64,000 bases of DNA from Microbulbifer sp. YPW1 (GTDB lineage Bacteria; Pseudomonadota; Gammaproteobacteria; Pseudomonadales; Cellvibrionaceae), in NCBI RefSeq assembly GCF_013367775.1, contig NZ_CP055157.1:1405001-1469000 (forward strand). The letters are read 5' to 3'. The translations under genes were made by a program, and so were the position numbers. This document shows, in pieces, positions 1,446 to 36,387 of this stretch (within the stretch, counting starts at the first letter, position 1; every line of letters begins with the position of its first letter). The notes below the pieces were generated by a model, which searched no databases, was not told the origin of the DNA, and saw nothing but the letters and a program-made list of their open reading frames with translations.

Positions 1446-2555
1446 TCAGGCTGCGTCTTCTTTACCCTGATCCCCGCCTGCTTTTCCGCCGATTACACCG
1501 CGCTTCAGCTGGTCGCGCTCGATGGATTCGAACAGTGCCTTGAAGTTGCCTTCACCAAAGCCTTCGTCTTCCTTGCGCTGGATAAACTCGAAGAATACCG
1601 GGCCGAGCATGTTGGCAGAGAAGATCTGCAGCAGCAGGCGCGGCTGGCCGCCTTCGGTGGTGCCGTCCAGCAGCAGACCGCGCTTTTTCAGCTCTTCGGT
1701 AGGTTCACCGTGGCCGGGCAGGCGCTCTTCCAGCATTTCGTAATAAGTTTCCGGGGGCGGGGTCATGAATTCCATGCCCTGCTTTTTCAGTCGATCCCAG
1801 CAGGCCACCAGATCGTCACAGGCAAAGGCGATGTGCTGGATGCCTTCGCCGTTGTACTTCATCAGGAATTCTTCGATCTGGCCGCCGCCACCGGCTGCTT
1901 CTTCGTTCAGCGGGATACGGATCTTGCCATCCGGCGCGGTCATCGCCTTGGACAGCAGGCCGGTGTACTCGCCCTTGATGTCGAAGTAGCGGATCTCGCG
2001 GAAGTTAAACAGGTCTTCGTAGTACTTGGCCCAGTAGTCCATGCGACCGCGGTACACGTTGTGGGTCAGGTGGTCCAGGGTGTGGAAGCCACAGCCTTCC
2101 GGATGCTTGTCAACGCCTTCCAGCCAGTGGAAATCGATATCGTAGATGGACTCGCCTTCTTTATAACGGTCGATCAGGTACAGAGTGGCACCGCCGATAC
2201 CCTTGATCGCCGGCAGGCGCAGTTCCATAGGGCCGGTTTCCACTTCTACCGGCTGGGCGCCTTTCTTGAGCGCTTCGTTGTAAGCGAAGGTCGCGTCTTT
2301 TACGCGGAACGCCAGGCCACAGGCGGATGGGCCGTGCTCGCGCGCATAGTAGTCCGCGTGGCTGCCCGGCTCGTAGTTGGTGATGAAGTTGATGTCACCC
2401 TGACGCCACAGTTCAACGTCTTTGGTGCGGTGGCGGGCGACTTTGGTGAAGCCCATGGCCTCGAAAACAGTCTCCAGAATGCCCTTCTCCGGCGCGGTGA
2501 ATTCCACGAATTCGAAGCCGTCCAGGCCCATGGGGTTCTCAAACAAATCGGCCAT
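1446..2555 (-). CDS. hppD: 4-hydroxyphenylpyruvate dioxygenase
   Basis: This 369-residue enzyme converts 4-hydroxyphenylpyruvate and O2 to homogentisate and CO2 in the cytoplasm, committing tyrosine to degradation. It has two VOC modules. The C-terminal one carries the complete Fe(II) facial triad: His162 in [14 protein letters not shown], His241 in [14 protein letters not shown] and Glu323 in [11 protein letters not shown]. These lie one residue from the positions reported for the Pseudomonas fluorescens enzyme. Length fits the bacterial family. The ATG at 2555 was chosen because AAGGAGGA lies just upstream; an upstream in-frame extension of 27 residues has no such site. It is the first gene of an operon with the VOC and FAH-family genes and has a sigma70-like promoter at 2639-2667. 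Confidence 0.96.
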
Positions 2556-4519: not shown

Positions 4520-4534
4520 TACGTTTTCTCCAAT

Positions 4535-6722: not shown

Positions 6723-9584
<2,862 letters not shown>

Positions 9585-9968: not shown

Positions 9969-10637
9969 ATGTCAAAAATTAACCGCGTTGATCATATTAC
10001 CTATGCCGTAGCGGAAGGGATGATCGAAAAATGGGGCTGGTATCACATTGAAGTGGAAGGCGGAAAACTGACCAAGCGTATCGACGATGTACGCCCTGAT
10101 GACCCCCATAGCAGTATGAAGCTTTGGTGTATCGATTTTATCAACTTCGGGATTGTGCTGGTCGAGGGCATCGACCGGAGCAAAGTCAGCCAGGTATCTG
10201 CTTTCGCCAATCGACACGGCGATCACAGCGTACAGCATATTGCTTTTGATACTCCCTGCCTCGAAGAATTTGTTGGTCATGCCATGTCACTGGGTACAAA
10301 TTTGCGTGGTAGCCAGCTCATAAACGATGACGGCTTCGGTAGACTCAAGCAGCTATTCGGTAAAGGATATGCAAAACAAGATCCTGCCGAAATGTCTTTC
10401 CCGGAATATATCGAACGCCCAAGGGGCGGCTCTGAAGGGAAGGAAGTGAATACGGACGTCCCGCAAAATACCGGAAAGAATTTTTATCAGCGTATTGAAG
10501 ACGCCCGAATAAACAATGACACCTCTACTTTGACAGACTTTTCGATGATGCCGGCAGGCTGGCGTCCGTCAACCGTAAAACCTGAGAGTCGAACCACAAC
10601 GTCATCTACTTCCGAGGCTGAAGCCGAACTCTTTTGA
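9969..10637 (+). CDS. Stand-alone HPPD-like VOC dioxygenase (half-size)
   Basis: This 222-residue protein resembles only the catalytic C-terminal half of 4-hydroxyphenylpyruvate dioxygenase. The three metal ligands are all present in HPPD-like contexts: His9 in NRVDHITYAV, His90 in DHSVQHIAF and Glu146 in SFPEYIERP. The N-terminal HPPD module is missing, and the last ~55 residues after NFYQRIEDAR are low-complexity. A Fe(II)-dependent dioxygenase, perhaps acting on an alpha-keto acid, is the likely role; substrate unknown. It leads a plus-strand cluster, 81 bp before the adenylation-carrier-thioesterase gene. A true hppD lies 7.4 kb away, so this is not the housekeeping enzyme. AGG and AAGGA lie close before the ATG. 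Confidence 0.75.
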   Translation: MSKINRVDHITYAVAEGMIEKWGWYHIEVEGGKLTKRIDDVRPDDPHSSMKLWCIDFINFGIVLVEGIDRSKVSQVSAFANRHGDHSVQHIAFDTPCLEEFVGHAMSLGTNLRGSQLINDDGFGRLKQLFGKGYAKQDPAEMSFPEYIERPRGGSEGKEVNTDVPQNTGKNFYQRIEDARINNDTSTLTDFSMMPAGWRPSTVKPESRTTTSSTSEAEAELF

Positions 10638-10718
10638 GATTATTTTTAAACCAGAATTTTTCGCCCTAACTACTATAGGGAAAAATTGGCTGTTGCAGGA
10701 AGCAACTAGGAAACGAGC

Positions 10719-13700
10719 ATGGACGCTTCGTTGGCGCACAAGCCAGACCCGGTTACCGCTGTCAAAACGAATCACGGGATTCCACCTTTTCTCGTAATTG
10801 AAAACGCAATAGTTGATTCTGCTGCACAGCAGAATGAAAATTGCGCAAGAAAAATCATAGACGAGGACGCTGAAAGCACAGCTCTATGGTTAGCAGGGGA
10901 ATCAAATACGATAGAAACCGACACGGTCACCCTTCTAGCGCTATATCTTCTTGGTTTGTATCGAGTTACGCAAACCGAGAGTTTCGCCATACCGCTATAC
11001 GTCTTAAATAATAATAATCGGCATACGGTCAAGACGCTTTGCTTTTTTGCAGGCGAAACTTTGCCACAAATTCGCGAACGCGTCCGCCAACGTCTAGAAG
11101 TCCCCGGAACACCTATATCGGCCTATTCAGAAGGCGACAACCCGCTACCAAACTCCAGCTGCGCAGCTGCGCTACTTCCAGAAGGTCACGCAACGAAATT
11201 CCCGCAGGATCTGCTTCCGCCGTACGGAACGAATCTTTGTCAGACGATTTTGACTGTGGTAAACGCAACCGGCGGCGAGCCTTCTTATACATGGTTGACG
11301 CGAAAAACTGGCCAAAACGACAAACAAAATCCGTCACTAAAAACGTTCTTCGAGCGCTTGATCGATGTTCATTTACGGATCCCCGGCATAGACTTACACG
11401 GCGTCGACCTGTTATCGAAAGAAGAAATTCTGCAACAGCAAGGGTTTTCTTCCGACATCATCGAAGCCGTATCGCACACCCCGGTTTACCGGCAGGTAGA
11501 GCGTTTTGCTGAAAACACGCCTGACGCTAACGCAGTTAGTGTATCGGGCCGGTCACTGACGTATCGTCAGCTGAACAGTCTATCAAACCTGATTGCCCGT
11601 GAGATGGCCGTCAAAGGCGTTACTCATGGCAATTACGTGGGTGTTCTCATTCAACCATCGCCGTTTATCTTTGCCAGCATTCTGGCGATCCATAAGCTGG
11701 GGGCAATATACGTCCCGCTGGATGCGTCATTTCCGGAATCGCGGCTAAAGAAAATCATAGAGACCGCACCGCCAACTCTTATATTGTATGACGCATCTGG
11801 TGAGAAAATGATAGCCCGGTTGGGCGTACCCGCTTTCAACCCTGCGCACCATATAAGTAATAAAGATCTCGCGGACAACATACCGAACCCATCGCACGAC
11901 GTTTCCATCGGATCGGCGTCACATGTATTTTTTACTTCTGGAACTACCGGAAACCCGAAAGGGATACTTGCAACGCACAAAAACTTCTCCCATAGCCTGT
12001 ACGCCGGCGTGCGCCGATACGGCTTTACCAGTGCAGATCGGTTCATTGCTGTCGCGCGATGCACATTCAGCATATCCATGTTCGAATACTTTACAGCGCT
12101 TACGCTTGGCGCAAGCGTGGAACTGATAGCTCCTGACACCATTTCAGATAAAACACAGTTTATAGCGCGATTGCGAACGGCCTCTGTTGTACATATGGTG
12201 CCCAGTCTTTTGCGGCAGATTTTGGATTATCAAGCTCCAGCGGGAACCGAAATTACGCTACCGAGCATTCGATATCTACTGACGGGCGGCGATATGGTTC
12301 CCGCTGAGACCCTGGAAAAATCACGCTCGATATTCACGCAGGCCCGCATTTTCGTTAATTACGGATCAAGCGAAATCAGCTGCATGGGCTGTACCTATGA
12401 AATTGACCGTGGTCAGGCGAAAATTCGCACGAAGATCGGCAGGCCTCACCCGAACATGAAAGTACTTATCCTTGATAAGAACAAAAACAAACTTCCACTG
12501 GGTTCCTGCGGTGAGTTGCATTTTTCCGGTGATGGTATCGTTCCTGGTTATATTAACAAAGGCGATCTTAACCGACGAAAATTCATCGACATCGATGGCG
12601 AACGTTTTTTTGCGATCGGAGACATAGGGCGATTTGACCACCAAGGAAATATTGAACTTCTTGGTCGTGAAGACTTCCAGCTACAGATAAACGGTATCCG
12701 TATCGAACCACCTGAAATTGAATATCGTCTGAAGCAACTGCCATCTATACGTGACTGTGTGGTAGTTGGCCGATCTATAAGTAAAAGCAAGAATAACTCG
12801 CTCATCGCATATATCGTGGAAGGTGAAGCACTGCCGACACCAAATGAATTAACGGATCATCTCCGCAGCCACTTACCCGAATACATGTGCCCATCAGCAT
12901 ATATTGCGCTGACGGAATTACCGACAAATCACAACGGAAAAATAGACAGGGCACAACTCCCTGAGCCGACCGCGCAAAATATATTGTCGGTGGAGTCTAC
13001 AACCGGGAAGCGCACAAAACTTGAAGAAGAATTAATTGAAATTTGGGAGCGGACTTTCGACCTCAATGGATTGCACCAGGACCACGATTTCTTCGAAATC
13101 GGAGGCACCTCACTTGATGCAATCAGCATGCTAACGACAGTCCATGATACGTATGGAAGAAAGATATCCTTACCGCACTTCCTTTCCAACCGGACCGTAA
13201 AGAAGCTGGCACGAGCACTTTCAATAAACGATGATTCTCTTGAAAATGAACATGTTACGGTGTTAAAGGATGGGGACGCAGATCTTCCACCTTTATTCTG
13301 CTTGAACGGATCTATCCAGTATCGAGAGCTGGCGTCGACCATCGACATACCGAACCAAGTCGTTTCTGTCACGCTTCCGGAAGAGGAAGAGATTATTAGT
13401 GATGGCTCGATGACAGGTGCATTTTCAGAAATTTCAGACTTTCAACGGATTACGCAAAAATATCTGGATGCCATTCTGCGCTATCAGTCTGAGGGGCCCT
13501 ACCTTTTGACGGGCGCCTCATTTGGCGGCCTTATTGCATTTGAAGTTGCCCGAGATCTCTTAAGGTCCGGGAAAAAAGTAGATCTTGTCGGACTGTACGA
13601 TACCTGGGTGCCAGGATACAGAGAAAAAGCCAAACCGGTTAGCCGAGTACTGATCGGGCTTAAGAAGATTCATGAGTCCGGACTATCGCAACTTCGCTCG

Positions 13701-14054
13701 TATGGCCTCCGCGTGATCAAACGGTTAAGCGGCCGTCAGAAAGTTACTCATGGTCCCGAGAATACCGATATACGCGACGTGCTGCGTAGCACTGCGCTCG
13801 CCAAATTTAAGCTACGCCCCCAGAATCAAAGCGTTTTGCTGTTCAATGCGATCGATCGACCGCGTTATTACGGTGAGCGCAACGAGGAACATCTCGGCTG
13901 GAAGCGCTACGCATCTAGCGTAGAAGTTTGCAAGGTCCATGGCGATCATATTGGCATTCTCAAATATCCGCACGTGCTTTGCATCGCTGAGAAACTTGAA
14001 GAACGAATTTCAGCACTGGCCGATTGCGACGGTGCAAGTAGAGCTATGCATTAG
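10719..14054 (+). CDS. NRPS-like enzyme: adenylation - carrier - thioesterase
   Basis: This 1111-residue cytoplasmic enzyme has an N-terminal ~240-residue segment resembling the end of a condensation domain (GIDLHGVDLLSKEEI precedes the A domain) but no HHxxxDG. The adenylation domain (about 250-760) has FFTSGTTGNPKG, NYGSSE, FAIGDIGRF and the catalytic Lys741 in NHNGKIDR. The carrier has Ser798 in FFEIGGTSLDA for phosphopantetheine. The thioesterase has Ser934 in GASFGG and His1077 in VHGDHIGIL. At the position of the amino-group-binding Asp235 of GrsA there is Ser451 (CTFSISMFEYF), so the substrate is probably not an alpha-amino acid; an aryl, keto or hydroxy acid is more likely. AGGA precedes the ATG. 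It is flanked by a dioxygenase-like gene and two acyltransferases. Confidence 0.87.
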   Translation: MDASLAHKPDPVTAVKTNHGIPPFLVIENAIVDSAAQQNENCARKIIDEDAESTALWLAGESNTIETDTVTLLALYLLGLYRVTQTESFAIPLYVLNNNNRHTVKTLCFFAGETLPQIRERVRQRLEVPGTPISAYSEGDNPLPNSSCAAALLPEGHATKFPQDLLPPYGTNLCQTILTVVNATGGEPSYTWLTRKTGQNDKQNPSLKTFFERLIDVHLRIPGIDLHGVDLLSKEEILQQQGFSSDIIEAVSHTPVYRQVERFAENTPDANAVSVSGRSLTYRQLNSLSNLIAREMAVKGVTHGNYVGVLIQPSPFIFASILAIHKLGAIYVPLDASFPESRLKKIIETAPPTLILYDASGEKMIARLGVPAFNPAHHISNKDLADNIPNPSHDVSIGSASHVFFTSGTTGNPKGILATHKNFSHSLYAGVRRYGFTSADRFIAVARCTFSISMFEYFTALTLGASVELIAPDTISDKTQFIARLRTASVVHMVPSLLRQILDYQAPAGTEITLPSIRYLLTGGDMVPAETLEKSRSIFTQARIFVNYGSSEISCMGCTYEIDRGQAKIRTKIGRPHPNMKVLILDKNKNKLPLGSCGELHFSGDGIVPGYINKGDLNRRKFIDIDGERFFAIGDIGRFDHQGNIELLGREDFQLQINGIRIEPPEIEYRLKQLPSIRDCVVVGRSISKSKNNSLIAYIVEGEALPTPNELTDHLRSHLPEYMCPSAYIALTELPTNHNGKIDRAQLPEPTAQNILSVESTTGKRTKLEEELIEIWERTFDLNGLHQDHDFFEIGGTSLDAISMLTTVHDTYGRKISLPHFLSNRTVKKLARALSINDDSLENEHVTVLKDGDADLPPLFCLNGSIQYRELASTIDIPNQVVSVTLPEEEEIISDGSMTGAFSEISDFQRITQKYLDAILRYQSEGPYLLTGASFGGLIAFEVARDLLRSGKKVDLVGLYDTWVPGYREKAKPVSRVLIGLKKIHESGLSQLRSYGLRVIKRLSGRQKVTHGPENTDIRDVLRSTALAKFKLRPQNQSVLLFNAIDRPRYYGERNEEHLGWKRYASSVEVCKVHGDHIGILKYPHVLCIAEKLEERISALADCDGASRAMH

Positions 14055-14602
14055 TGCATGGGGCTATATTTGGAGTATTAACGTTGAAAGACCATAAAAA
14101 TATAGACTGGCAAACCCCGGACTGGAGCAGGGAAAAACCACGCCGTTTCTGGGATCCGAGCAGGAAATTGCTTGGAGCCATTCGCGATTTCCAAAAAATT
14201 CAGCACAAGAGTGATCCAATCACCTACTTAAGGAAAAAGTATTGCAAGTTGCGGCACCGTATTTGGACCATCGTAACGGGCGCCGAGATTGATCTCCATT
14301 GCCGTATAGGGGGCGGGCTGCTTATCCCACACCCGAATGGTGTGGTAATACACCCCGACGCGATCATCGGCGCGAACTGCCTTATATTTCAGCAAGTAAC
14401 GCTCGCCGGAATCGTCGAATTGGACTACCACGTAGATATCGGTGCCGGGGCAAAATTACTCGGCCCGTTAAAGGTCGGTCACAGCGCAAGGATCGGTGCC
14501 AATGCGGTGGTTACACATAATGTTTCATCAAACCAAACGGTAGTCGGCATTCCGGCGCGGCCGATAGCTATAAAGTCCAGCGAACCCGCCACAAATAATT
14601 AA
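14054..14602 (+). CDS. Serine O-acetyltransferase-like hexapeptide acyltransferase
   Basis: This protein of 172-182 residues has a C-terminal left-handed beta-helix of hexapeptide repeats (about 75-170) with GAEIDLHCRIGGGLLIPHPN, the His-containing GVVIHPDAIIG and VVGIPARPIAI. This is the CysE-like acyltransferase layout. The usual long N-terminal SAT domain is largely absent, so an acetyltransferase for a sugar or small acid in this cluster is more likely than a cysteine-biosynthesis enzyme. The GTG at 14054 overlaps the previous stop by one base; a TTG at 14084 with GGAG upstream is an alternative start. It is probably co-transcribed with the NRPS-like gene and the acyltransferase 3 gene 9 bp downstream. 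Confidence 0.8.
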   Translation: MHGAIFGVLTLKDHKNIDWQTPDWSREKPRRFWDPSRKLLGAIRDFQKIQHKSDPITYLRKKYCKLRHRIWTIVTGAEIDLHCRIGGGLLIPHPNGVVIHPDAIIGANCLIFQQVTLAGIVELDYHVDIGAGAKLLGPLKVGHSARIGANAVVTHNVSSNQTVVGIPARPIAIKSSEPATNN

Positions 14603-14611
14603 GAAGCTTTT

Positions 14612-15787
14612 ATGAGTACTCAACAAGCACAAGGATACATGCCGCAACTGGATGGTTTGAGAGGTGTAGCCATTCTTGCCGTGATGACCGTGCATTTTGG
14701 TCTGGGCTCACTACTTCCAAGCGAGCAGTACAGTACCGCATTCCGCGGAGCAGGATTAAGTGCATTTTTTGTTTTGAGCGGTTTTTTGATTACTGAGAAT
14801 CTTCTCAAGCAAAGGCCCGGCCATCCTCTCACGATGGGCTTATTTGGTAAGCACTTACTGATATTCTTTATGAGACGTGGATTTCGAATATACCCGGCGT
14901 ATTTTTTCCTGATCTTGACCCTGACGATTATTGGATTTGAGGGTATTAGCAAGGTAGCAATTTGGCACTATATATTTGTTGCCAATATGGATTTCGCGCG
15001 TTATGTGGACATCACGTCAAGTTACGCGCTTGCACACGCGCCTACGGCACATTTGTGGTCCATATCGGTACAGGAGCAATTTTACCTTGTGTTACCGCTC
15101 GCAATATTTCTCCTTAGGGGCCGCGCGCTCGTAGTCGCCATTATATCGGCAATTCTTATCGCGCCTTTGTGGCGGTTTTACTGGATTTTTGTCGACAATT
15201 CCTCGACCACAATTCACCATCTCTTCGCATTGCCATCGCTGCTGGACACTTTGCTGAGCGGATCCCTACTTGCACTCTATAAACGGGACTATTGTGGAAT
15301 CAGAAGTCAATGCTCCAGGTACATGAATAGGGTCGTGCCCTTAGCTGTGGCAATTACAGTCCTAATGATTTGCAGCAAGGGCGCCGGTATAGGTTCTCGC
15401 TACACCACCCTCCTTTTTGACCCGTTTTTTGCCATCAGTATCGGCTATGTCATCTACAACGCATCCAATAATGTCAATAACGCCGCGGGCCGCTTCCTCA
15501 ACTTTAGGTTCTTACGCTTCCTCGGCCAAATCAGTTTCGGGCTTTATCTATACCATGCGTTTGCACCACATCTAGCGGACTTCGTATTTTCCGGCACTTC
15601 ACTATCACCAGATAGGTCATCGCTGCTATGGGTGCTGTCTTACATAGCGATCTCCGTTCTGTTGGCGTGGGCATCACTGAAAATCATAGAAAAGCCTGCT
15701 CTGGCTTTCCGCTCAAAAATTATCCACCGCATCAGGTCCAGCGCCAACAGGAATATCGGTACACAGGGACTTCAGCCGCATACGTAG
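14612..15787 (+). CDS. Acyltransferase family 3 membrane protein (OafA-like)
   Basis: This 391-residue protein has about ten membrane segments and the signature start QLDGLRGVAILAVMTVHFG, including the conserved Arg and the catalytic His. LWSISVQEQFYLVLPLAIFL is another family hallmark. Such proteins move acetyl or other acyl groups across the inner membrane onto polysaccharides or glycolipids. There is no SGNH domain at the C-terminus. It ends the cluster with the dioxygenase-like, NRPS-like and SAT-like genes and lies just before the exopolysaccharide biosynthesis operon, so O-acylation of that polymer is plausible. Confidence 0.9.
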   Translation: MSTQQAQGYMPQLDGLRGVAILAVMTVHFGLGSLLPSEQYSTAFRGAGLSAFFVLSGFLITENLLKQRPGHPLTMGLFGKHLLIFFMRRGFRIYPAYFFLILTLTIIGFEGISKVAIWHYIFVANMDFARYVDITSSYALAHAPTAHLWSISVQEQFYLVLPLAIFLLRGRALVVAIISAILIAPLWRFYWIFVDNSSTTIHHLFALPSLLDTLLSGSLLALYKRDYCGIRSQCSRYMNRVVPLAVAITVLMICSKGAGIGSRYTTLLFDPFFAISIGYVIYNASNNVNNAAGRFLNFRFLRFLGQISFGLYLYHAFAPHLADFVFSGTSLSPDRSSLLWVLSYIAISVLLAWASLKIIEKPALAFRSKIIHRIRSSANRNIGTQGLQPHT

Positions 15788-17555: not shown

Positions 17556-18755
17556 GTGAAAATTACCAAGCTGCAATCGAATACATGTTTAGCGGTGGGA
17601 CTCGGAAGTTTTTTGGCAACGTCCGTTTCTGCAACACCGATAGCGCTTCCAGGCGGCATAGACCTGAAGCCATCCCTGGATAGCGCACTTAATTATGACG
17701 ATAACGTTACCAATTCCAGTACCGATCAGATTGAAAGCTGGCTAAGTACACTTACTCCAACCCTTCTCTTTGAAGCAAGTAACGGCGTAGATTTCTATAC
17801 ATTTGAATATTCATTGGAAGGTGGTCACTATTTTTCCAGTGAGAGCGATAATTATACAGACCATTCTCTTTCTGGTAGTGCCAAATGGGAAATAACAAAT
17901 AATTTTGACATCGAACTAGATGTATCCTGGTTAAAGGATCATTTAGAGCGAGGCATTGGATTTACACAAGGCATCGGCAACCTTGCTGATGGCCCCGATA
18001 AGTTTACCGAAGGCCAGGTAAAAACGACATTTAGTTATGGCAGCGCGTCAAATCCACTGATATTCGATTTCTCATTGGGCGCTGACAATACCACTTACGA
18101 CCGCATCTTGCCGCTACCAGGACGCGACCAAAAAAGTCAGTTTGCTGGTATTAGCACGGGCATTCAGGTCGGAAGCCGGACAGCCGTTGTCGCAGAAATT
18201 GATTACAGTGAAATTGATTTCGATTTCACAGTCAATGGTGCTCCGGCCTCTTCACGCGGGCTGGACAACGAGCAGATCGATTATCTTGGCGGTATCGACT
18301 GGAGTAGTGCAAAAACAGATTTGAGTATTCGAGTGGGTGAGCGTCACAAACGGTTCATCAACAATAGCCGCGAAAATTTTGTTGGCCCAAGATGGATACT
18401 CAGTGTCTCTTGGTCCCCTCTGACCTATAGCGCCATTTCCCTTACAAGCCAGCGCCGCACCGACGAGCCCCGCGGCTTCGGTGATTTTATCGATACCACC
18501 GCGCATTCGGTTAGTTGGCGACATAATTGGACGACCAGACTCGGGACCACACTGGCCCACGCCCGACAAAAGAGTGATTACTTTGGCATCGAGCAGGTTG
18601 ATAGCAGCCATACCAGCACAGCTTCACTCAGCTACAATTTCAGGCCGTGGATGAGCTTTCAGGTGGGAGCTTCTCACTTCAACCAAACGTCGACGCTAGA
18701 CCGATTGAATTTTGAGCGCAACATTTCGTTCATACGAGCGACTGTTTCCCCTTAA
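17556..18755 (+). CDS. Outer-membrane beta-barrel of the exopolysaccharide locus (EpsL-like)
   Basis: This 399-residue protein starts with GTG behind GGGGGAA and has a signal peptide ending near SVSATPIA. The mature part shows alternating hydrophobic and polar strands throughout (for example DFYTFEYSLEGGHYF and FDIELDVSWLKDH) and ends in an aromatic/hydrophobic strand ISFIRATVSP, as barrels do. Such proteins accompany EpsL-type exopolysaccharide operons. It lies between the initiating transferase and a short OPX protein, so it may provide the outer-membrane pore that the OPX lacks. No enzymatic motif was seen. Confidence 0.8.
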   Translation: MKITKLQSNTCLAVGLGSFLATSVSATPIALPGGIDLKPSLDSALNYDDNVTNSSTDQIESWLSTLTPTLLFEASNGVDFYTFEYSLEGGHYFSSESDNYTDHSLSGSAKWEITNNFDIELDVSWLKDHLERGIGFTQGIGNLADGPDKFTEGQVKTTFSYGSASNPLIFDFSLGADNTTYDRILPLPGRDQKSQFAGISTGIQVGSRTAVVAEIDYSEIDFDFTVNGAPASSRGLDNEQIDYLGGIDWSSAKTDLSIRVGERHKRFINNSRENFVGPRWILSVSWSPLTYSAISLTSQRRTDEPRGFGDFIDTTAHSVSWRHNWTTRLGTTLAHARQKSDYFGIEQVDSSHTSTASLSYNFRPWMSFQVGASHFNQTSTLDRLNFERNISFIRATVSP

Positions 18756-18799
18756 AAAAAGCATGCCCAACGCCTTAAAACGAATGTAATTCTATTGAT

Positions 18800-19345
18800 A
18801 TGAGAATAAATACACTGCATCAGTTAGTTCTAATTGCGATTTCATTGGTTGGTTGCACTCAAGCAATCGCGCAGGGGTTCAATTCTTATGATTACGAGCT
18901 TGGTCCCGGAGACCAGATAGAAATCGTTGTGTTTGGCGAAGACGATTTAAGCATCGACTCTCAGATAGGCGATAACGGGGTCATAAATTACCCGTATATC
19001 GGTGAGCTTCATGCTTCAGGATTAACGATTCGCGCGTTACAGGACATGATAAAGAGCGATTTAAAAGGTGATTATCTGGTCAACCCGATCGTACAAATAT
19101 CCATAGCACAATATCGGCCTTTTTTTATCGATGGGGAGGTCGAGGTTCCGGGTGGCTATCCCTTCCAGCCTGGCCTTACGATTTTGAAGGCAGCTGCACT
19201 TGCACAAGGCTTTACTGAGCGCGCGTCTCGCGAAAAAATATTCATTACACGTGAGATTAACGGCGAAGAGAAAATAGTAAAGGCAGAGTTAGGTACCCAT
19301 ATTCGCCCGGGCGATATCGTAACGGTCGAACAGAGATTTTTTTGA
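18800..19345 (+). CDS. Polysaccharide export (OPX) lipoprotein, short form
   Basis: This 181-residue protein has a signal peptide with lipobox LVGC (Cys19). It then has a Poly_export domain (YELGPGDQIEIVVFGEDDLS) and one SLBB-like domain (FIDGEVEVPGGYPFQPGLTI). It ends shortly after GDIVTVEQRFF, so it lacks the additional SLBB repeats and the C-terminal amphipathic helix that forms the Wza pore. OPX proteins of this kind need a separate outer-membrane partner, plausibly the beta-barrel encoded just upstream. Its stop overlaps the Wzc-like start (TGATG). Confidence 0.9.
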   Translation: MRINTLHQLVLIAISLVGCTQAIAQGFNSYDYELGPGDQIEIVVFGEDDLSIDSQIGDNGVINYPYIGELHASGLTIRALQDMIKSDLKGDYLVNPIVQISIAQYRPFFIDGEVEVPGGYPFQPGLTILKAAALAQGFTERASREKIFITREINGEEKIVKAELGTHIRPGDIVTVEQRFF

Positions 19346-21693
19346 TGAATAATATAGATTCGAATCACTATGGTGATAGCTTTTCATCGGAGGAATTTGT
19401 AGACCTTCGAAAATACTTCAGCATACTCTGGTCTTACAAATTTCCTATAGTAACAGTCGGGCTAATTGCCGGAATCTTGGCTGCTGGTTTTATGTGGCTT
19501 CAGCCAAAACAATATCAGGCAACATCCACTATTAGCTTTGCAAGTGGTCGCGCCAATATCGTGCAAATTCGTGAAATTGTAGAAACCGGCAATGAAAACC
19601 GAGACTATTTGCAAACCCAGGCAGAAGTAATCCGTTCCCGTCAGCTGGCTTCTCGCGTTGTCGAACGACTCCAACTCACAAAAGCTTCTTTCGACGCACC
19701 GCCAAACGCGATCACCAGTTTATTTGAATTAAACGGCCCAACCAAACCTGCCTCAGAGTTAGACAGCGACGCGGCAATGCAACAGGCAGATCAAGCCGCG
19801 CAGGAAAGCAGTGAAACCGTTCCTGTTTCAGATGCCCGCACTTCAGAGCTTACCCCTGAAGAGGTGGTATCGGCCAATAGCGCCCCCACCAGTGCCCTTC
19901 TGGTCAATATGCTTATTAAAAACCTCTCGGTAGAGCTAGTCCGGGGGACACAGCTGATTACCATTTCCGTAGTCACCCATTCTTCAGAACTTTCCGCCGA
20001 AATTGCAAACACACTTGCAGAGGAATATCTCGCCAGCCAATTAGAACAGAAACGTGACGTGGCCTCCGAAGCAACTGACTGGCTGGGCGAACGGCTCGAT
20101 GTGCTACGCACTAATCTGGAAGAGTCTGAACAGACGCTTCTCGCGTTCCAGCGCGCGGAAAACCTCGTAGATGTCGATGGTGTGCGTGGACTGGCCGCAC
20201 AGGAACTCAATGAAGTCACAACACAATTGCTTGTGGCAAAACGTCAGCTTCAACAGGTCTCTACCAGCTATCAGCTGGTTCGACGCAGAGGAGACGACAC
20301 TGAAGCGCTGGCTTCGCTTCCTCAAATTCAGGAACAACCAACGATTCTGGCGTTACGCCAACAGGTATCTGACATTCGGCGACAGATATCCGACCTCCAG
20401 CTTCGCTATGGTGCAAAACATCCGCGCATGATCGCTGCGGTCAATGAGCTTGATTCTGCAAATAATGCATTGGCGGACGAGATTACGGGTATAGTTTCGG
20501 TAATTGTTGGCCAATACGAAGCCGCTCAAGCGAACGTAAATGCACTCGAGGCTGAGCTCCAGCGGGTGAAGGATGATTTTCAGGAGCTTTCCCGAAAGGA
20601 AATCCAATTTGAAGAACTGAAACGCCAGGTAGAAATTAACCGTGAGCTCTATGACACCTTTCTAACCAGAGCCAGTGAAACTTCACAGGGAACAGGATTT
20701 GATAAAGGCAACGCGCGCATCACGGACCCGGCCGTGCCACCCCTCGAACCACTTGACAACAAATTTAATTTGATTGTTTTCGCAGTCGTTATTGGTTCAG
20801 TTTTATTATCTTCCGTTTTCGTTCTGATATACGAAATGGTACAGGACAGCATACGAAATCCGGACGACGTGGAATTAGTGTTAAAACAAAAAATGTTTGG
20901 ACTGATTCCATTACACAAACAAAATAATACGGAGAGTAATTTCTCAGCAAGGTCGTACTTTGATGAGACATATTTTCAATATGCCGAATCCATTAAGACA
21001 TTGCGCACAAGTCTTGTACTGTCACACCTTGATACACCGGCTAAGATCATTGCCTTGACATCATCGGTGCCAAGCGAAGGAAAAACAACAGTTTCGACTA
21101 GTTTGGCATTCGCATTAGCACAAAATGAGCGTGTTTTGTTAATTGATGCTGACTTGCGTAGGCCTTCCGTGGGAAAAACCTTTGGTTTTGCAACCAAGGT
21201 ACCAGGCCTCACCAACCTTATCGCGGGCACTCACAAAGCCACAGAATGCGTGCACCGGGACGATGCTTCCGGCCTTGATGTCATGCCGTCAGGTCCGATT
21301 CCCCCCGACGCACAACAATTACTAAATTCACTGCGGTTTAGCAATACAGTTAAATTACTGTCCAAGCAGTACGACCGTATCGTGATTGACACCGCGCCGG
21401 TGAATGCGGTCAGTGATGCACTGATGATTTCACGTATATCGGACGCAACATTGTTTGTGGTCAAATCTGGATCAACTCGTCGGAAGGTGATCCTGAGAGG
21501 CATTGAACGATTGACTCAGGTGGGCATAAATATCGATGGCATCATTCTGAATCAAGTGGATGTGAACTCCAGGTTCGCGCGCTCTGAAGAGTTCTACGGT
21601 TACTATGGCGGTCAATACGGTTATGGTCAGTCTACCGATGACCGCAGTGAGAGCTTAGCGGCTCCCCGCTCGGTAAAGCTTGAGACTGTATGA
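19345..21693 (+). CDS. Wzc-like polysaccharide co-polymerase with tyrosine autokinase domain
   Basis: This 782-residue protein has a Wzz domain with membrane segments at about 34-52 and 475-495 enclosing a periplasmic coiled coil with a ~45-residue acidic, Ala/Ser-rich insertion (about 133-175). A cytoplasmic BY-kinase domain follows, with Walker A SSVPSEGKTTVS, Walker A' VLLIDADLRRPSV and Walker B YDRIVIDTAPVN. A Tyr cluster near the C-terminus (EEFYGYYGGQYGYGQ) is the autophosphorylation site. It controls chain length and export of the polymer. The ATG at 19345 overlaps the OPX stop, and its own stop overlaps the phosphatase start, so the three are translationally coupled. Confidence 0.95.
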   Translation: MNNIDSNHYGDSFSSEEFVDLRKYFSILWSYKFPIVTVGLIAGILAAGFMWLQPKQYQATSTISFASGRANIVQIREIVETGNENRDYLQTQAEVIRSRQLASRVVERLQLTKASFDAPPNAITSLFELNGPTKPASELDSDAAMQQADQAAQESSETVPVSDARTSELTPEEVVSANSAPTSALLVNMLIKNLSVELVRGTQLITISVVTHSSELSAEIANTLAEEYLASQLEQKRDVASEATDWLGERLDVLRTNLEESEQTLLAFQRAENLVDVDGVRGLAAQELNEVTTQLLVAKRQLQQVSTSYQLVRRRGDDTEALASLPQIQEQPTILALRQQVSDIRRQISDLQLRYGAKHPRMIAAVNELDSANNALADEITGIVSVIVGQYEAAQANVNALEAELQRVKDDFQELSRKEIQFEELKRQVEINRELYDTFLTRASETSQGTGFDKGNARITDPAVPPLEPLDNKFNLIVFAVVIGSVLLSSVFVLIYEMVQDSIRNPDDVELVLKQKMFGLIPLHKQNNTESNFSARSYFDETYFQYAESIKTLRTSLVLSHLDTPAKIIALTSSVPSEGKTTVSTSLAFALAQNERVLLIDADLRRPSVGKTFGFATKVPGLTNLIAGTHKATECVHRDDASGLDVMPSGPIPPDAQQLLNSLRFSNTVKLLSKQYDRIVIDTAPVNAVSDALMISRISDATLFVVKSGSTRRKVILRGIERLTQVGINIDGIILNQVDVNSRFARSEEFYGYYGGQYGYGQSTDDRSESLAAPRSVKLETV

Positions 21694-22436
21694 TTGACTT
21701 GCATTGTCATATTCTCCCGGGGATTGATGATGGAGCAAAGGATCTTGCGCACGCATTGGAACTTGCCCGAGCGGCGACAGAAAATGGTATTACGCACGCT
21801 GTATTGACACCGCACATTCATGTCGGCCGCTATCTAAACGACCGCGCATCAATTTCGTGCGTATTTGAAAGGTTTCGCACCGAACTAATGCGGGCACGCA
21901 TCCCATTACGTGTTTCCTTCGCTGCCGAGGTCCGGCTTGGCAGCGATATTCCGAGAATGATAAGGAATGACCAGATCCCCTTTTTGGGTAACTGGGAAGG
22001 TAAACGCGTCCTGCTACTCGAACTCCCCTATCAAGGGATCCCTCCCGAGACATCACATTTTGTGAAGTGGCTTTTAAAAAATGACATCTGTCCTCTAATA
22101 GCACATCCGGAGCGGAATAAAGGTGTTCTGCGCAACTTCAATCAGGTATTTTCCTTGGCCAGAATGGGGTGCCTCTTCCAGGTGACCGCCGGTTCAGTTA
22201 CTGGTGCCTTCGGTGAGCCCGTGAGGTTGTGTGCCGAAAAGCTGCTTAAGACAGAACTCGTCACAGTTTTAGCGTCCGATGCACATCATTTGTCGCGCCG
22301 ACCGCCAATCTTGGAGGCCGGCCGTATAGCAACAGAAAAAATCCTGGGCGAATCAACTTCTTGGGAACTTGTACTAAGTAACCCCGGTCGAATTGCGAGC
22401 TGCCACTTTTCAACTCAGGTGGGACGGGCGCAATAG
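21690..22436 (+). CDS. PHP-domain tyrosine-protein phosphatase (CpsB/YwqE-like)
   Basis: This 248-residue cytoplasmic metal-dependent phosphatase is expected to dephosphorylate the Tyr cluster of the kinase encoded just upstream. Metal-binding motifs of the PHP fold are present: DLHCHILPGIDDGAKD at the N-terminus, LTPHIH at about residue 47, HPERN and the C-terminal SDAHH. The ATG overlaps the kinase stop (ATGA). Gram-negative clusters more often use low-molecular-weight phosphatases, so the PHP type with a fused-kinase Wzc is a notable combination but occurs elsewhere. Confidence 0.92.
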   Translation: MIDLHCHILPGIDDGAKDLAHALELARAATENGITHAVLTPHIHVGRYLNDRASISCVFERFRTELMRARIPLRVSFAAEVRLGSDIPRMIRNDQIPFLGNWEGKRVLLLELPYQGIPPETSHFVKWLLKNDICPLIAHPERNKGVLRNFNQVFSLARMGCLFQVTAGSVTGAFGEPVRLCAEKLLKTELVTVLASDAHHLSRRPPILEAGRIATEKILGESTSWELVLSNPGRIASCHFSTQVGRAQ

Positions 22437-25228: not shown

Positions 25229-26617
25229 TTACGCAATGGTGACGGCCAGGTAAATTCCTATCATTAAAAGACCGGCAATATCTGCCAAGACATTTGCGTA
25301 GCGATTTACTATGGCGTACGCGAGTGAAATCAAAAATGCAAGTGCCGACCCCAAACATAGACCATAGAGCATACCCGATACGGTTTCCGTGGCCCAATAG
25401 CCAGCCAACATACATCCATATCTCAATACCGCCATAGAAAGCGATATATAAAAATGGCTTCGGCTATCGCCAAGCACCAACAATGTATTCTGATATAACA
25501 GCTCTAAAAATCTCAGTGCACTGTTAACAGCGAGAATACTGAGGAAAGTACCTGCCAGGGTATATCGTTCATCATAAAGTAGCTTCACCAGATAAGGCCC
25601 AAATACAGAGAGCGCAAGAAATACCGGGATAATAGCCAGGTTGCTCGCCCAACGCAGCCTATATACGATCGCGGGAAGCTTTTCACGATCCTCTCGTACA
25701 ATTCTGGACAGCGCCGAAAACCCTACATTAGTGATAATACGCTGAATAAGTTCCTCGAATACCATTACGAGCGTACGAGCAATCGTAATCAAACCCAGAA
25801 CTTCGATCGTGACTAACGCACCCTGAACCAGCGGTAAACCATGCCCACTAAAGAAATTCACCATCGTGGCCAGCAATATCCAACGGCCAAAATGAATAAT
25901 TTCACGCGCACTGTCTTTCTGAATCGTGAAGTGGTGCGCATGATATGGTAAGACCAGATACCCCAAAACAGTTTTTATGAGGCTGGCCGCTATAGAGCCC
26001 ACCGCCAGAGCCCAAACCGTATCATAGACATACGCAAATGCGATGGTTATCGCCGTTCCAGCGAATGTAGACAGAAATTGTACGGCGATAACCCGCGCCA
26101 AACGCAACTTCCGCATTTCCAAAAATTCAGAAATTGACCCGAACCCTTCAATGACTGCTGAGAATCCCAAGAAGCAGATCAATGGGAAAAGAATATTTTC
26201 GCCATAAAAAATCGCCATCGGAGCAGCCAGAATGCAGGTAATCAACCATAGCACCGCTCCACGAATGATTTTTAATGTCCACGCAGTATTAACGAATTCC
26301 GGTGAATCACCTCGGGTACTTTTTACGACCGAAGACCGAATACCCAGATCACTGAACATGGCTAACGCAAGAACAACGACATTCGCGATTGCCATGAGCC
26401 CGAACGCTTCCGGGAACAGAATGCGAGTAAGTACAAGGCTAGACACAAGTTGGATAGCTTTTTGTCCACCAAAACCGAGGACAAGCCAAAATGATCCTCG
26501 TAATGAAGACGCTCGTGTCCCATTCCCTTGAAAATGGGACATCAGGGATTGGACGCGAAACGCTATTCTTCCTTTTATTCCATGCGTCGAAGATCGGTGT
26601 ATTAATTCGGACTGCAC
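25229..26617 (-). CDS. Oligosaccharide flippase (Wzx/MOP family)
   Basis: This 462-residue protein has about 12-14 membrane segments and begins, after a basic N-terminus, with SFWLVLGFGGQKAIQLVSSL and LTRILFPEAFGLMAIANVVV, typical of polysaccharide flippases. It would move undecaprenyl-linked repeat units across the inner membrane. The GTG at 26617 has GGAG five bases upstream; an ATG at 26542 is an alternative start without such a site. It is the last gene of the minus-strand operon, 44 bp after the glycoside hydrolase gene, and converges on the G8 lipoprotein gene. No terminator is evident in the 42-bp gap between them. Confidence 0.9.
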   Translation of the reverse strand: MQSELIHRSSTHGIKGRIAFRVQSLMSHFQGNGTRASSLRGSFWLVLGFGGQKAIQLVSSLVLTRILFPEAFGLMAIANVVVLALAMFSDLGIRSSVVKSTRGDSPEFVNTAWTLKIIRGAVLWLITCILAAPMAIFYGENILFPLICFLGFSAVIEGFGSISEFLEMRKLRLARVIAVQFLSTFAGTAITIAFAYVYDTVWALAVGSIAASLIKTVLGYLVLPYHAHHFTIQKDSAREIIHFGRWILLATMVNFFSGHGLPLVQGALVTIEVLGLITIARTLVMVFEELIQRIITNVGFSALSRIVREDREKLPAIVYRLRWASNLAIIPVFLALSVFGPYLVKLLYDERYTLAGTFLSILAVNSALRFLELLYQNTLLVLGDSRSHFYISLSMAVLRYGCMLAGYWATETVSGMLYGLCLGSALAFLISLAYAIVNRYANVLADIAGLLMIGIYLAVTIA

Positions 26618-26661
26618 ATAGACTCCATAAATATTTCCCTATATTTTTCAAACATACGCCG

Positions 26662-28686
26662 TCAATTTGGTCTGGTATTCGAAGTCGAAATTGAAAGCCA
26701 GGGCGATAACGGGTCTGGCTTCAATCGCACTGTGCGTGAACTCCATGTCGAATTCTTCGTTACGCCGTCGCCAAATGACGATCGGAACTCTTTGCCCGTC
26801 CTCACATCCAAGACGCGCTGATGAGAAGGATAATCGAGACTTATCGAAAATTTATTGTCGCTGGCGACAGCGGTTAAGAAGCCTTTTGTACAGGACGCCA
26901 GTCTCCCGGAAATGCAGATCATTGAAAAAGATCCTTTACCACCCTGAAGTCTTACGCGATATCCGCCGATATCCCGAAAAATCGGCTTTTTCGAGAAGTC
27001 ACCCGATACAGCTAGTATCCTTGACGAGCGCGCAATAAACTGCCGATTTTCGACATCGCGGAAAAACTCGTTTTCAAACTCCGAGCTCGAGGCCTTTTGG
27101 GCACCAGGTCTGGATTTCACTGGAGGTTGGACGGTAATTTCAAAATCACTCCGCTCTTTTCCGGGAGTATTTCTTGCGTCGGGGCTCAACCAGGGAAATA
27201 TACTGCCGTAACTCATATCTACAGAAAATCTATGCTTCTCGATAGCGTCGCGTATTGCGATATTTTCGCCCACGGAGAGCTTTCCGCTTAACAGAGTCTC
27301 AATATTCGCGGACAAAATAGCGTCGGCATCAGGTCTAGGTAATAATTTATTGCGAAAGATATACGATGAAGCGGGCATCATCGCAAGCAATTGGTAGTCA
27401 TTATATTGTGACCACTGATCATCATGGAGGCTCCCGGGGCCATTAAGCGGCCGCTGAGAATAACCATATTGCAGCATGGCGTCCCATCCCTGCCTTACCC
27501 CTACAGCTGCCAACCAGATCGGCAGGGAATCCCTTCCATCCTGTTTCGGGACCTTTGTATTCCACTCACTGACGGTAAGTGGTTTTCCGGCGACCTGCGC
27601 AGCGCCGACCCAGTGCACCATTCCCGCATCAATTTTTGGGCCAATTTCAATCTCTTGTGGCTCTCCGTAAATGTGTACATCGATAAAGTCGCCACTTGCA
27701 AGCGATGGGAGGGAATCCGGGCCCATTTTACCCCAGCTGCTCGCACCAGAAACGGGGACCCTTACGCCAATCTTTCTCAACTCAGATTGCATTCTCTGAT
27801 AATAACTCGCCTCCAAAAAATTCCATTGGAGCTTCTGCTTCGCGCCTTTTGTGAACGTATATTCCTCCTTTCCGACGTAATCTGATTCGATCTTCCACTG
27901 CCGCAATAATATGAGCATATTTTTGTTATGCAACGGTGCCTCACGCTCATGCATATTGGCACCAAAATGTCGTGTTAGATCATTTTCATTATTGACGAGA
28001 ATCATTGCAATCGCCGGATCGTTCCTATATTCAAGCCCGCTATAGCTATTTCTGTGCGTTAAATATAGCTTCGCGAACTCCAGCATTTTGTCTTGCATCG
28101 AAGCGTTTACATAGAGATAACCCTTGGGGGAACCAAGACGACCACCGTGCCTGGTTTCACTAAACGCAGCTATTTTTTCTTCTTTGTTAAACACTCTACC
28201 GCTATGAAGATCAAGCCAGATATAAATGCCTTCCGCCGCAAGGCAGTGTATCCACCAATCCAATTTTTCTATGGATTCTTCGCGAATATATGCACGGCCA
28301 ATATCATCGTAATCGATAAGATTCGGTACTACCCAGGGTGAATCATGGTGGTGGAACCTGACCAAATTTATCCCCATGGCCGCCATTCTTCGCGCATGTT
28401 TTCTGACGTTTTCCCGAGATGTGCCAAACAAGGCATATGCCTGTAGATTCACTCCCCAAAAGCGGGCCTCATTTCCGTTATCAAATACAAATTTCTCGCC
28501 ATTTACTCGCAAAAAGCCGGGGTTTGAATCCTGCCTTGAAATTCCAATCTCGGGAAAAACACGATTTAGTTCTCGCCATGGGAGATCTTTTGGCGCAGCC
28601 GCATTAGCGTGTAGAGAGCAGAGAAAGCCTATAAGCAGGCAGGTCGTAAGGGATACTACATTGTATCTCGAATTTAGGATGTGCAT
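26662..28686 (-). CDS. Secreted glycoside hydrolase, GH5-like clan A
   Basis: This 674-residue protein has a signal peptide (hydrophobic core LTTCLLIGFLCSL, cleavage near ANAAAP). A TIM-barrel hydrolase (about 65-430) starts RFWGVNLQAYALF and has the clan A proton donor in MILVNNENDL and nucleophile in PLTVSEWNTK. The C-terminal ~200 residues look beta-rich, perhaps a carbohydrate-binding module. It is cellulase/GH5-like, but the exact family needs a profile search. Its start overlaps the ligase/polymerase gene by 13 bp, inside the polysaccharide operon. A periplasmic hydrolase here probably cleaves the polymer during export or clears failed product, as PslG and PelA do in other systems. Confidence 0.85.
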   Translation of the reverse strand: MHILNSRYNVVSLTTCLLIGFLCSLHANAAAPKDLPWRELNRVFPEIGISRQDSNPGFLRVNGEKFVFDNGNEARFWGVNLQAYALFGTSRENVRKHARRMAAMGINLVRFHHHDSPWVVPNLIDYDDIGRAYIREESIEKLDWWIHCLAAEGIYIWLDLHSGRVFNKEEKIAAFSETRHGGRLGSPKGYLYVNASMQDKMLEFAKLYLTHRNSYSGLEYRNDPAIAMILVNNENDLTRHFGANMHEREAPLHNKNMLILLRQWKIESDYVGKEEYTFTKGAKQKLQWNFLEASYYQRMQSELRKIGVRVPVSGASSWGKMGPDSLPSLASGDFIDVHIYGEPQEIEIGPKIDAGMVHWVGAAQVAGKPLTVSEWNTKVPKQDGRDSLPIWLAAVGVRQGWDAMLQYGYSQRPLNGPGSLHDDQWSQYNDYQLLAMMPASSYIFRNKLLPRPDADAILSANIETLLSGKLSVGENIAIRDAIEKHRFSVDMSYGSIFPWLSPDARNTPGKERSDFEITVQPPVKSRPGAQKASSSEFENEFFRDVENRQFIARSSRILAVSGDFSKKPIFRDIGGYRVRLQGGKGSFSMICISGRLASCTKGFLTAVASDNKFSISLDYPSHQRVLDVRTGKEFRSSFGDGVTKNSTWSSRTVRLKPDPLSPWLSISTSNTRPN

Positions 28687-30170
28687 TGTTCCGCACGGCT
28701 CCTCGACGAGATGAGAGTCAATTGTGCAGTTTGTCTCTTCGCAGACCCAGTTGAATCGGCAAGATTATTTCGTGCAAATGCGCCTGGATTAGAAGGGGGT
28801 GTTCGGGCTGGCTTACCCGGTATCAGCTTCGAGTTTTTACGGTGAACAAGGCGTACAGGTTTTGTCGAGGTCACACCCAAAACCGCACCCGCAACAAACC
28901 AGACAATTTCACTCAATGAACTATTGGGAATCTGATCCACCATCAGTACGACAAGCAAGATCGAAATGCCGGAAAATATTTGTTTTTGACCAGCATCACG
29001 ACCGCCAAATACCAGCTTCCCTGCTCTTAATATGGGAGAGATCAGTAGGCCACTAATGGCCAGATAACCCAGGACGCCAGCGGTTCCCAATACCATCACC
29101 CAGTATCCATCTGTTACGGAGTCGTGAAGACGATTCCGTCCCCACCCGCCCCAACCCAGCCACATCTTTTCTTTTGCGTGGATCAGCAAAGCGGATTCAT
29201 GATTGAATCGGAAGGCAAGTGAATCCGCGCGATCCTGTCCAAATACCGCTGCCGCATCCAGTACCGACTCTATCGGGAACCATCCAAGAAGTGACATTAA
29301 TGGGTAGAACACAACGAGTACCGCAATCGACAATGCGGTAATTTGCTTTACTCTCGGTGGTACCACCAGGATGGTTAGGATAGCGACCATACCTAAGATC
29401 CATGCTCCAACCGATTTGCAGAGCAGAAGAATGACCAGAAGAGAAATCAAAATAAGTAGACCGGGAATGCGCGTCAATGAGAGGCGCATGGTCGTGAGAA
29501 TAGCGGCCGCCGTGCATGAAATGACCATCAGCATCGATACAAGCAGGCCGTGGCCGATAAATACGACAGGTCTAAACCCTCCGAACCGGACTTGCTGAAT
29601 AAAATCATGGGGGAAAAATCCATATACCCATGTGTGCAATTGTGGGCTCATGCGGATTTCAAACAGGATTGCCGGTGTATAAACAATCCCAGCAATAATC
29701 AACAACCGGACTAACTGTACCAACTCCGCTCTTGTCCGGACGACCGCAGCCCCGAGCAAAAATGGTACAAGGTCAAAATACGATTTCAGGGAGAACGAAA
29801 TTCCATCATATAACGTTAATCCCTGTATAGTTTCCTCACCATTAAAATAGGGTTCCGGGTTATTTAGGGCGGAAAACAATGGAAAAACTATTACAGAAAT
29901 AAATAGGATTTTTTCTCGTAAATTACCGGGGGTTAATGGCACCCACCTTCTTTTTACTACCAGACACCACAACATTGCAGACAATGCGGGTATCGACGTT
30001 TTGTCAAATGCAGGCAGCATTGGGAGGTCAATTCCAACGCGAACCGGCAGTAGCAAATAGCCACCAGCGATAGTCCAGAATGTTGCATTGAGGGCCGAGA
30101 GACGACAGTAAAGCACAAAGGATACCACCGGCCAGGCAAGCAACATAAAATACGCAAAACTATTTGCCAT
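28674..30170 (-). CDS. O-antigen ligase/polymerase-like membrane protein
   Basis: This 498-residue protein has about 11-12 membrane segments, a large periplasmic loop (about 300-350, with AKEKMWLGWGGWGRNRLHDS) and a charged cytoplasmic tail of ~60 residues rich in Lys, Pro and Ser. The loop motif, an aromatic-Gly stretch followed by a charged segment, is typical of the Wzy_C/O-antigen ligase family. Within this Wzx-Wzc locus it is most likely the polymerase (Wzy) rather than WaaL. It follows the WecG-type transferase by 21 bp. Confidence 0.82.
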   Translation of the reverse strand: MANSFAYFMLLAWPVVSFVLYCRLSALNATFWTIAGGYLLLPVRVGIDLPMLPAFDKTSIPALSAMLWCLVVKRRWVPLTPGNLREKILFISVIVFPLFSALNNPEPYFNGEETIQGLTLYDGISFSLKSYFDLVPFLLGAAVVRTRAELVQLVRLLIIAGIVYTPAILFEIRMSPQLHTWVYGFFPHDFIQQVRFGGFRPVVFIGHGLLVSMLMVISCTAAAILTTMRLSLTRIPGLLILISLLVILLLCKSVGAWILGMVAILTILVVPPRVKQITALSIAVLVVFYPLMSLLGWFPIESVLDAAAVFGQDRADSLAFRFNHESALLIHAKEKMWLGWGGWGRNRLHDSVTDGYWVMVLGTAGVLGYLAISGLLISPILRAGKLVFGGRDAGQKQIFSGISILLVVLMVDQIPNSSLSEIVWFVAGAVLGVTSTKPVRLVHRKNSKLIPGKPARTPPSNPGAFARNNLADSTGSAKRQTAQLTLISSRSRAEQCTS

Positions 30171-30191
30171 ATTGGATATCCATTTACCCGT

Positions 30192-30971: not shown

Positions 30972-30999
30972 TATTTACGTCCTCCTATTCCTTTATGAG

Positions 31000-32181: not shown

Positions 32182-32184
32182 AGG

Positions 32185-33396: not shown

Positions 33397-33408
33397 GGTG
33401 GAATATTT

Positions 33409-35324: not shown

Positions 35325-35345
35325 TGTTTTGTCACACGCAGAGAA

Positions 35346-36362: not shown

Positions 36363-36387
36363 GTCCAATTAGATTAATTCAAAAACG

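Follow-up and report, generated by a model that had tools for sequence, protein, structure and literature searches.

The main known case of envelope polymers being decorated by way of a carrier protein is, to our knowledge, D-alanylation, in which the Dlt system (DltA, DltC, DltB, DltX, DltD) couples an adenylation enzyme and a carrier to an MBOAT and an SGNH protein that pass the acyl group to an envelope polymer. Here we analyze a cassette in a 64,000-nucleotide stretch of Microbulbifer sp. YPW1 (the window; positions 1405001-1469000 in genome G000, a single contig of 4.58 Mb). It comprises a one-module relative of 4-hydroxyphenylpyruvate dioxygenase (half-HPPD), an adenylation-carrier-thioesterase enzyme (A-T-TE), a hexapeptide acyltransferase and a membrane acyltransferase of the AT3 family, just upstream of exopolysaccharide (EPS) genes. 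If the reading favored below is right, the cassette varies carrier-based polymer acylation by taking its acid from an uncharacterised HPPD-like family.

Beyond the order of activities, the cassette may have in common with Dlt the FXYXXF shuttle motif: a fitting sequence, fused to the MBOAT C-terminus, occurs in 8 of 12 cassettes, whereas the window has no MBOAT. Unlike in Dlt, the adenylation (A) and carrier domains are fused with a thioesterase (TE), the adenylation pocket lacks Asp235, a dedicated HPPD-type enzyme is present, and the polymer is a Wza/Wzc-type EPS. The window itself carries an AT3 protein rather than an MBOAT/SGNH pair, and a Dlt-type neighborhood is thus absent there but present in 8 of the 12 cassettes. 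Compared with HPPD and 4-hydroxymandelate synthase, half-HPPD is half the size and has no N-terminal module. The A-T-TE synthetases of quinones and furanones (atromentin and ralfuranone type) have the same domain order, and a non-amino-acid substrate is suggested here as well. Unlike them, the cassette belongs to an EPS locus, sets the A-T-TE next to an HPPD-type enzyme and a membrane acyltransferase, and has an extra N-terminal region in some members. We know of no nonribosomal peptide synthetase (NRPS)-like activating enzyme in the described AT3/OafA, PatAB and AlgIJ systems of polymer O-acetylation. In these systems, acyl transfer falls to membrane enzymes of the families seen here, with acyl-CoA as the donor (PMC12148441 and PMC9558356).

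A literature search, with most subscription journals outside its coverage, found no description of the cassette, and no characterised pathway was matched to it, in agreement with the sequence-only reading, which knew of no described system with this set. A cryptic single-module NRPS family, GCF 12, is mentioned for GS-III strains in PMC12538549 and may or may not correspond to the cassette A-T-TE.

The cassette and its occurrence in Microbulbifer

The four open reading frames (ORFs) lie on the plus strand, separated by 81, -1 and 9 bases and followed after 226 bases by the listed TTG start of a WcaJ-type gene. They are a real, operon-like set, and their position directly upstream of EPS genes, as first read from the sequence, is borne out by the ORF coordinates and by Pfam and NCBIfam. 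The A-T-TE ORF (1111 residues) spans 10719-14054.

9969..10637, plus strand: half-HPPD, one-module HPPD/hydroxymandelate-synthase-like dioxygenase, 222 residues (TIGR01263, alignments, predicted model)
9993-9995, 10236-10238 and 10404-10406, plus strand: H9, H90 and E146, metal triad of half-HPPD (alignment)
10719..11468, plus strand: N-terminal ~250 residues of the A-T-TE protein, without Pfam match
11499..12941, plus strand: adenylation domain, AMP-binding and AMP-binding_C (Pfam)
12069-12071, plus strand: codon of S451 in the adenylation pocket (alignment)
13029..13220, plus strand: carrier (PP-binding) domain, with phosphopantetheine Ser798 at 13110-13112 (Pfam, alignment)
13308..14054, plus strand: type I thioesterase domain (Pfam match to residues 864-968; S934, D961 and H1077 in place)
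14054..14602, plus strand: hexapeptide (SAT/EpsC-like) acyltransferase, 182 residues (Hexapep in Pfam, NCBIfam)
14612..15787, plus strand: Acyl_transf_3 (AT3) membrane acyltransferase without fused SGNH domain, 391 residues (Pfam)

Half-HPPD was found in 13 of 48 Microbulbifer genomes, counted within 96 relatives and leaving aside a weak match in another genus (E 1e-4). The A-T-TE search, which scored at most 15 candidates in each genome, gave matches above 500 bits in exactly 12 genomes of the genus, all among these 13 and all adjoining half-HPPD. In these 12 of 48 genomes, an EPS locus contains the three-part core: half-HPPD, then the A-T-TE, then a membrane acyltransferase. Hence, the co-conservation by which the sequence-only reading proposed to check its four-gene set holds for the core and fails for the exact set: none of the 18 other loci holds a relative of the hexapeptide gene (at E 1e-4). 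One stop was counted inside the A-T-TE matches of G015, G001 and G002; we took it as terminal because the called ORFs there run 929, 898 and 847 residues.

In the thirteenth genome, M. elongatus SaN0-4 (G038), half-HPPD is broken: codon 22 is a stop and 9 bases are deleted. Between it and WcaJ, a stretch of 0.76 kb, no trace of the remaining cassette genes could be recognised (best E 1.1 by tblastn; no blastn match at E 1). The membrane acyltransferase had no match in this locus or in five EPS-only loci, one of them cut.

A fourteenth genome, G002, has no half-HPPD, and its A-T-TE, 30% identical to that of the window, is directly followed by a full-size HPPD, the second in this genome, which at 334 bits passes the TIGR01263 cut-off. 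With this pair, an HPPD-type enzyme of one of two types adjoins the A-T-TE in 13/13 cases with visible surroundings. The pair sits in a polysaccharide region: genes that by eye resemble rmlA, C, D and B come before the A-T-TE, two of them supported by nucleotidyl transferase and dehydratase domains, and ~20 kb downstream there is an operon of WcaJ, BBP2, Wza, Wzc and CpsB.

The membrane acyltransferase after the A-T-TE is an AT3 protein in three genomes (G000, G011, G018), an AT3-SGNH fusion in one (G045) and an MBOAT with a second protein in eight. Pfam was run on the window AT3 (PF01757, 76.6 bits against a cut-off of 31), one MBOAT and the AT3-SGNH protein; all others were typed by tblastn. 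All eight MBOATs end in FLYFNF, which fits FXYXXF, a shuttle motif that PMC12148441 describes for DltX and PatA. The second protein had no useful Pfam match, including the three of the eight SGNH-like proteins that were run, but carries GSNS and DTEYH motifs in 8/8, and one modelled example can be aligned to SGNH enzymes, among them DltD (over 237 residues). As Foldseek on that model alone was weak (best E 2.7e-4), the SGNH assignment was made on the alignment (VIA-align) and the motifs. The window hexapeptide protein, read earlier as SAT-like, keeps its Hexapep match but only resembles serine acetyltransferases: it stays below the NCBIfam equivalog cut-offs for EpsC (102 vs 150 bits) and CysE (84 vs 211), and is probably a separate, extra sugar O-acetyltransferase.

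The half-size HPPD-like dioxygenase and the A-T-TE enzyme

The only library match of half-HPPD is to TIGR01263 (26 bits vs a cut-off of 277; Pfam gave none), over model positions 155-246 of 353. The match lies in the C-terminal half. The protein is a single module of 222 residues where HPPD has two tandem VOC modules (~350-400 residues), in keeping with the earlier call of a stand-alone HPPD catalytic module. H9, H90 and E146 line up with the three HPPD ligands (DH, QH and FxExIQR motifs) as a 2-His-1-Glu triad, and are invariant in a 42-sequence alignment; in a 120-sequence one, H9 is kept in 119/120 and the other two in 120/120. Q75, Q89, Q128, F130, F144 and F172, also invariant among the 42, match HPPD pocket residues by eye. 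The best of five predicted models (pLDDT 81.1, pTM 0.74; the other four from pLDDT 78 down to 45.7) has hydroxymandelate synthase and HPPD as best structural matches and shows the C-terminal module fold with its closing helix. An hhalign comparison with full HPPDs gave a probability of 89, covering the first two ligand regions only. Half-HPPD is hence predicted to have the HPPD/hydroxymandelate-synthase catalytic fold with His-His-Glu intact.

The family has 549 matches at E <= 1e-3; among the 120 matches listed, named relatives include Actinomycetota, Gammaproteobacteria and Sorangium, and rows P0018-P0120 are 52-61% identical to half-HPPD over the aligned part. At E <= 1e-20 it was found in 2/369 Gammaproteobacteria genomes (G000 and G432), in 1/3 genomes of the order of G432 (G432 itself) and in 1/398 of a phylum sample (G000); a plasmid search gave no match. 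Half-HPPD lies divergent from a gene with Lrp/AsnC domains (Pfam) in three Acidimicrobiaceae loci and, in L025 on a short gammaproteobacterial contig, from a cut ORF reading as such a regulator by eye, that is, in 4/4 loci outside Microbulbifer (L022-L025).

Two other explanations of half-HPPD were rejected. For a split HPPD, the short N-terminal-type TIGR01263 match in G835 and G836 reads as a methylmalonyl-CoA epimerase-like protein and the short match in G432 as another short VOC protein (both by eye). As for half-HPPD serving as the tyrosine-catabolic HPPD of the non-Microbulbifer hosts, 4/4 had neither a canonical HPPD over the cut-off nor homogentisate dioxygenase TIGR01015 (hmgA), in a search that would miss other HmgA forms and with G432 71% complete. 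TIGR01015 was likewise not found in the four Microbulbifer genomes searched (G000, G002, G011, G028), in which canonical HPPD is present and another ring-cleavage type may replace it; in G007, a neighbor of HPPD looks by eye like another HmgA form.

In the A-T-TE protein, AMP-binding, AMP-binding_C, PP-binding and Thioesterase all exceed their Pfam cut-offs, and Ser798, S934, D961 and H1077 are present. The domain call of the sequence-only reading therefore stands, apart from the N-terminal residues it did not mention, which are probably the relic of a lost condensation domain, as their end resembles an NRPS C-A linker by eye. The phosphopantetheinyl transferase required for carrier activation is encoded in the window genome.

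The adenylation pocket of the window reads S451, I452, F455, M493, L521, G523, N547, C555, M556 and K741. In PheA numbering, we take S451 to be position 235, the site of the Asp that holds alpha-amino groups. We compared 19 A-T-TE enzymes, including those of all 12 cassette genomes, G002 and P0132-P0134; P0121 (identical to L018), P0124 and P0126 were left out of the 14 A-T-TE relatives. In 19/19, the pocket reads S-I-F at 235/236/239, G301, C330, M or L331 and K517, with Ser where an amino-acid-activating NRPS has Asp235, and the Ser/Asp/His of the TE is intact. In comparison, among 17 other A domains of the genus (one per locus, L040-L056; overall identity 28-33%), Asp235 is present in 16, the exception (L046, from G019) reads S-I-L, and the A-T-TE signature occurs in none. 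With this signature in common, the A-T-TE enzymes probably share a substrate, one other than an alpha-amino acid. When 369 genomes were searched with the Thiohalomonadales relative P0133, scoring two candidates in each, G000 (670 bits) was the only one to rise above the rest (next 418).

The EPS locus

The cassette lies between hpd, the gene for canonical HPPD, and the EPS genes:

1494..2519, minus strand: canonical full-size HPPD (hpd), 398 bits to TIGR01263
16014..17516, plus strand: WcaJ-type undecaprenyl-phosphate glucose phosphotransferase, first downstream EPS gene (Pfam/NCBIfam)
17556..22436, plus strand: EPS export and assembly, with BBP2-type outer membrane protein, Wza, Wzc and CpsB (Pfam/NCBIfam)
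25229..37389, minus strand: remaining EPS region, with Wzx-type flippase, weak Wzy_C-type protein, WecG, glycosyltransferases and two sulfotransferases

Judged from relatives, the WcaJ-type gene probably starts ~90 bases downstream of the listed start. A TIGR01263 match over the cut-off is present in 48/48 Microbulbifer genomes. In the window, hpd lies 7.4 kb upstream of half-HPPD; the distance is 3.5-11 kb in all 13 genomes with half-HPPD, with the EPS locus at the same position next to hpd. EPS genes adjoin hpd in 18/48 genomes (the 13 and 5 without half-HPPD), a count that could miss loci, since in the remaining 30 at most 19 kb on one side was covered, and much less in G007 and G025.

On the hpd tree (47 rows; G007, with a very long branch, was left out), 7 gains or losses are required to explain the 12 cassette genomes, and well-supported branches force at least 4 of these; the cassette is thus patchy. 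Across these 12 genomes, G038 being left out, half-HPPD and A-T-TE distances correlate (r 0.90; 0/2000 permutations as high), and neither follows hpd. Such correlations demonstrate linkage, not function.

EPS loci without the cassette have a gene for a phosphopantetheinyl transferase (PF01648) next to WcaJ in 4/4 cases where this flank is visible, a hint at another carrier-dependent decoration; L092 also carries a polysaccharide pyruvyl transferase.

L092, 10129-10995: PF01648 gene beside WcaJ
L093, 8046-8840: PF01648 gene beside WcaJ
L095, 9804-10694: PF01648 gene beside WcaJ
L102, 6973-7740: PF01648 gene beside WcaJ

Two large G8/CEMIP beta-helix proteins with cadherin-like domains are encoded on either side of the EPS export genes of the window (6723-9584, minus strand; 22457-25186, plus strand), and flotillin, YqiJ-type and PspA/IM30-type genes adjoin hpd (2825-5862, minus strand). 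Scans for Rfam families and tRNA genes yielded nothing.

Proposed pathway and alternatives

The sequence-only reading had the four genes make an unusual group, activate it and either attach it to the polymer or release it. This stands as an idea, and the comparative evidence now favors the polymer branch: that the cassette decorates the EPS with an acid made by the HPPD-type dioxygenase has, in our estimate, an even chance of being right. Half-HPPD would turn an alpha-keto acid (likeliest 4-hydroxyphenylpyruvate or a closely related aryl-pyruvate) into an aryl acid by oxidative decarboxylation; homogentisate is the simplest candidate product, because the partner in G002 is a full HPPD. The A domain would then adenylate the aryl acid and load it onto the carrier domain; its use of an HPPD-type product is the step we consider fairly likely. 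From the carrier, the acyl group would pass, directly or via the TE, to the membrane acyltransferase (AT3 here; AT3-SGNH or MBOAT with a DltD-like SGNH protein in relatives), which would carry it across the membrane to the polysaccharide or a lipid-linked precursor. Attachment to the polymer could go either way. The scheme would follow Dlt D-alanylation in its logic, except that the acid differs and is supplied by an oxygenase of its own.

Several observations weigh against this pathway. Dlt, as far as we know, works without a thioesterase, and the intact TE predicts release. The substrate of half-HPPD is read from family resemblance only, and its model is the best of five with a pLDDT spread of 45.7-81.1. 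Outside Microbulbifer, 3/3 wide loci (Acidimicrobiaceae) carry half-HPPD without an A-T-TE, and its chemistry is thus not tied to the cassette. No acyltransferase was seen beside the G002 pair. One deletion can remove adjoining genes together, which makes their joint absence weak evidence. WcaJ and Wzc distances correlate equally well (0.90 each with half-HPPD; 0.90-0.93 with half-HPPD and A-T-TE), so that the travelling unit is the whole EPS locus, and within the nine closest genomes the A-T-TE tracks WcaJ (0.70) above half-HPPD (0.61). Finally, AT3 enzymes (PMC9558356) and PatA-type MBOATs (PMC12148441) are known to use acyl-CoA, and the MBOAT/SGNH pathways apart from Dlt are said to have no such carrier (PMC12148441).

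The main rival, a serious one though we hold it to be only a possibility, is a free small molecule: half-HPPD and the A-T-TE would make an aryl-acid-derived ester, lactone or dimer released by the TE, and the AT3 or MBOAT and hexapeptide enzymes would be ordinary EPS O-acetyltransferases nearby. A-T-TE proteins elsewhere make quinones and furanones, and acetylation is the commonest sugar acylation. The TE residues intact in 19/19, the G002 pair, beside which no acyltransferase was seen, and the acyl-CoA donor shown for AT3 and PatA (PMC9558356 and PMC12148441) also fit this rival. However, a membrane acyltransferase follows the A-T-TE in 12/12 cassettes and has no match in the M. elongatus and EPS-only loci, the same slot is filled by two enzyme families in three layouts, and the cassette lies within the EPS locus in 12/12.

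It is rather improbable that the substrate of the A-T-TE is the alpha-keto acid itself, or some other non-amino acid, while half-HPPD acts elsewhere, for instance in clearing a competing keto acid or in aromatic catabolism. Known A-T-TE quinone synthetases take aryl-pyruvates, the absent Asp235 fits keto acids equally, and amino-acid catabolism genes often adjoin a divergent Lrp/AsnC-type regulator, as half-HPPD does in the four non-Microbulbifer loci (Pfam in three, by eye in the fourth). Yet an HPPD-type enzyme at the A-T-TE in 13/13, of two types, fits substrate production better than removal, and canonical HPPD is already present in 48/48. We regard it as most improbable that independent genes merely ride with a hypervariable EPS locus: this locus varies as a block, uncorrelated with the adjoining hpd (12 genomes), but the exact 12/12 nesting, the operon spacing, the half-HPPD damaged where the A-T-TE is missing and the independent G002 pairing with the same pocket signature speak for a joint pathway.

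If EPS decoration is right, carrier-based polymer decoration would also cover AT3 enzymes and an aromatic acid made by an oxygenase, and the unnamed one-module HPPD family would gain a handle. More tentatively, and with the chances rather against it, Microbulbifer may make a hydroquinone-bearing (homogentisate-type) EPS, in which a one-module or second full-size HPPD feeds the A-T-TE and interchangeable AT3 or MBOAT/SGNH enzymes write the aryl acid onto the exported polymer, yielding a redox-active slime that is possibly cross-linking or metal-binding. Were the EPS to carry a redox-active aryl ester, this would matter for adhesion, metal binding and the chemistry of biofilms.

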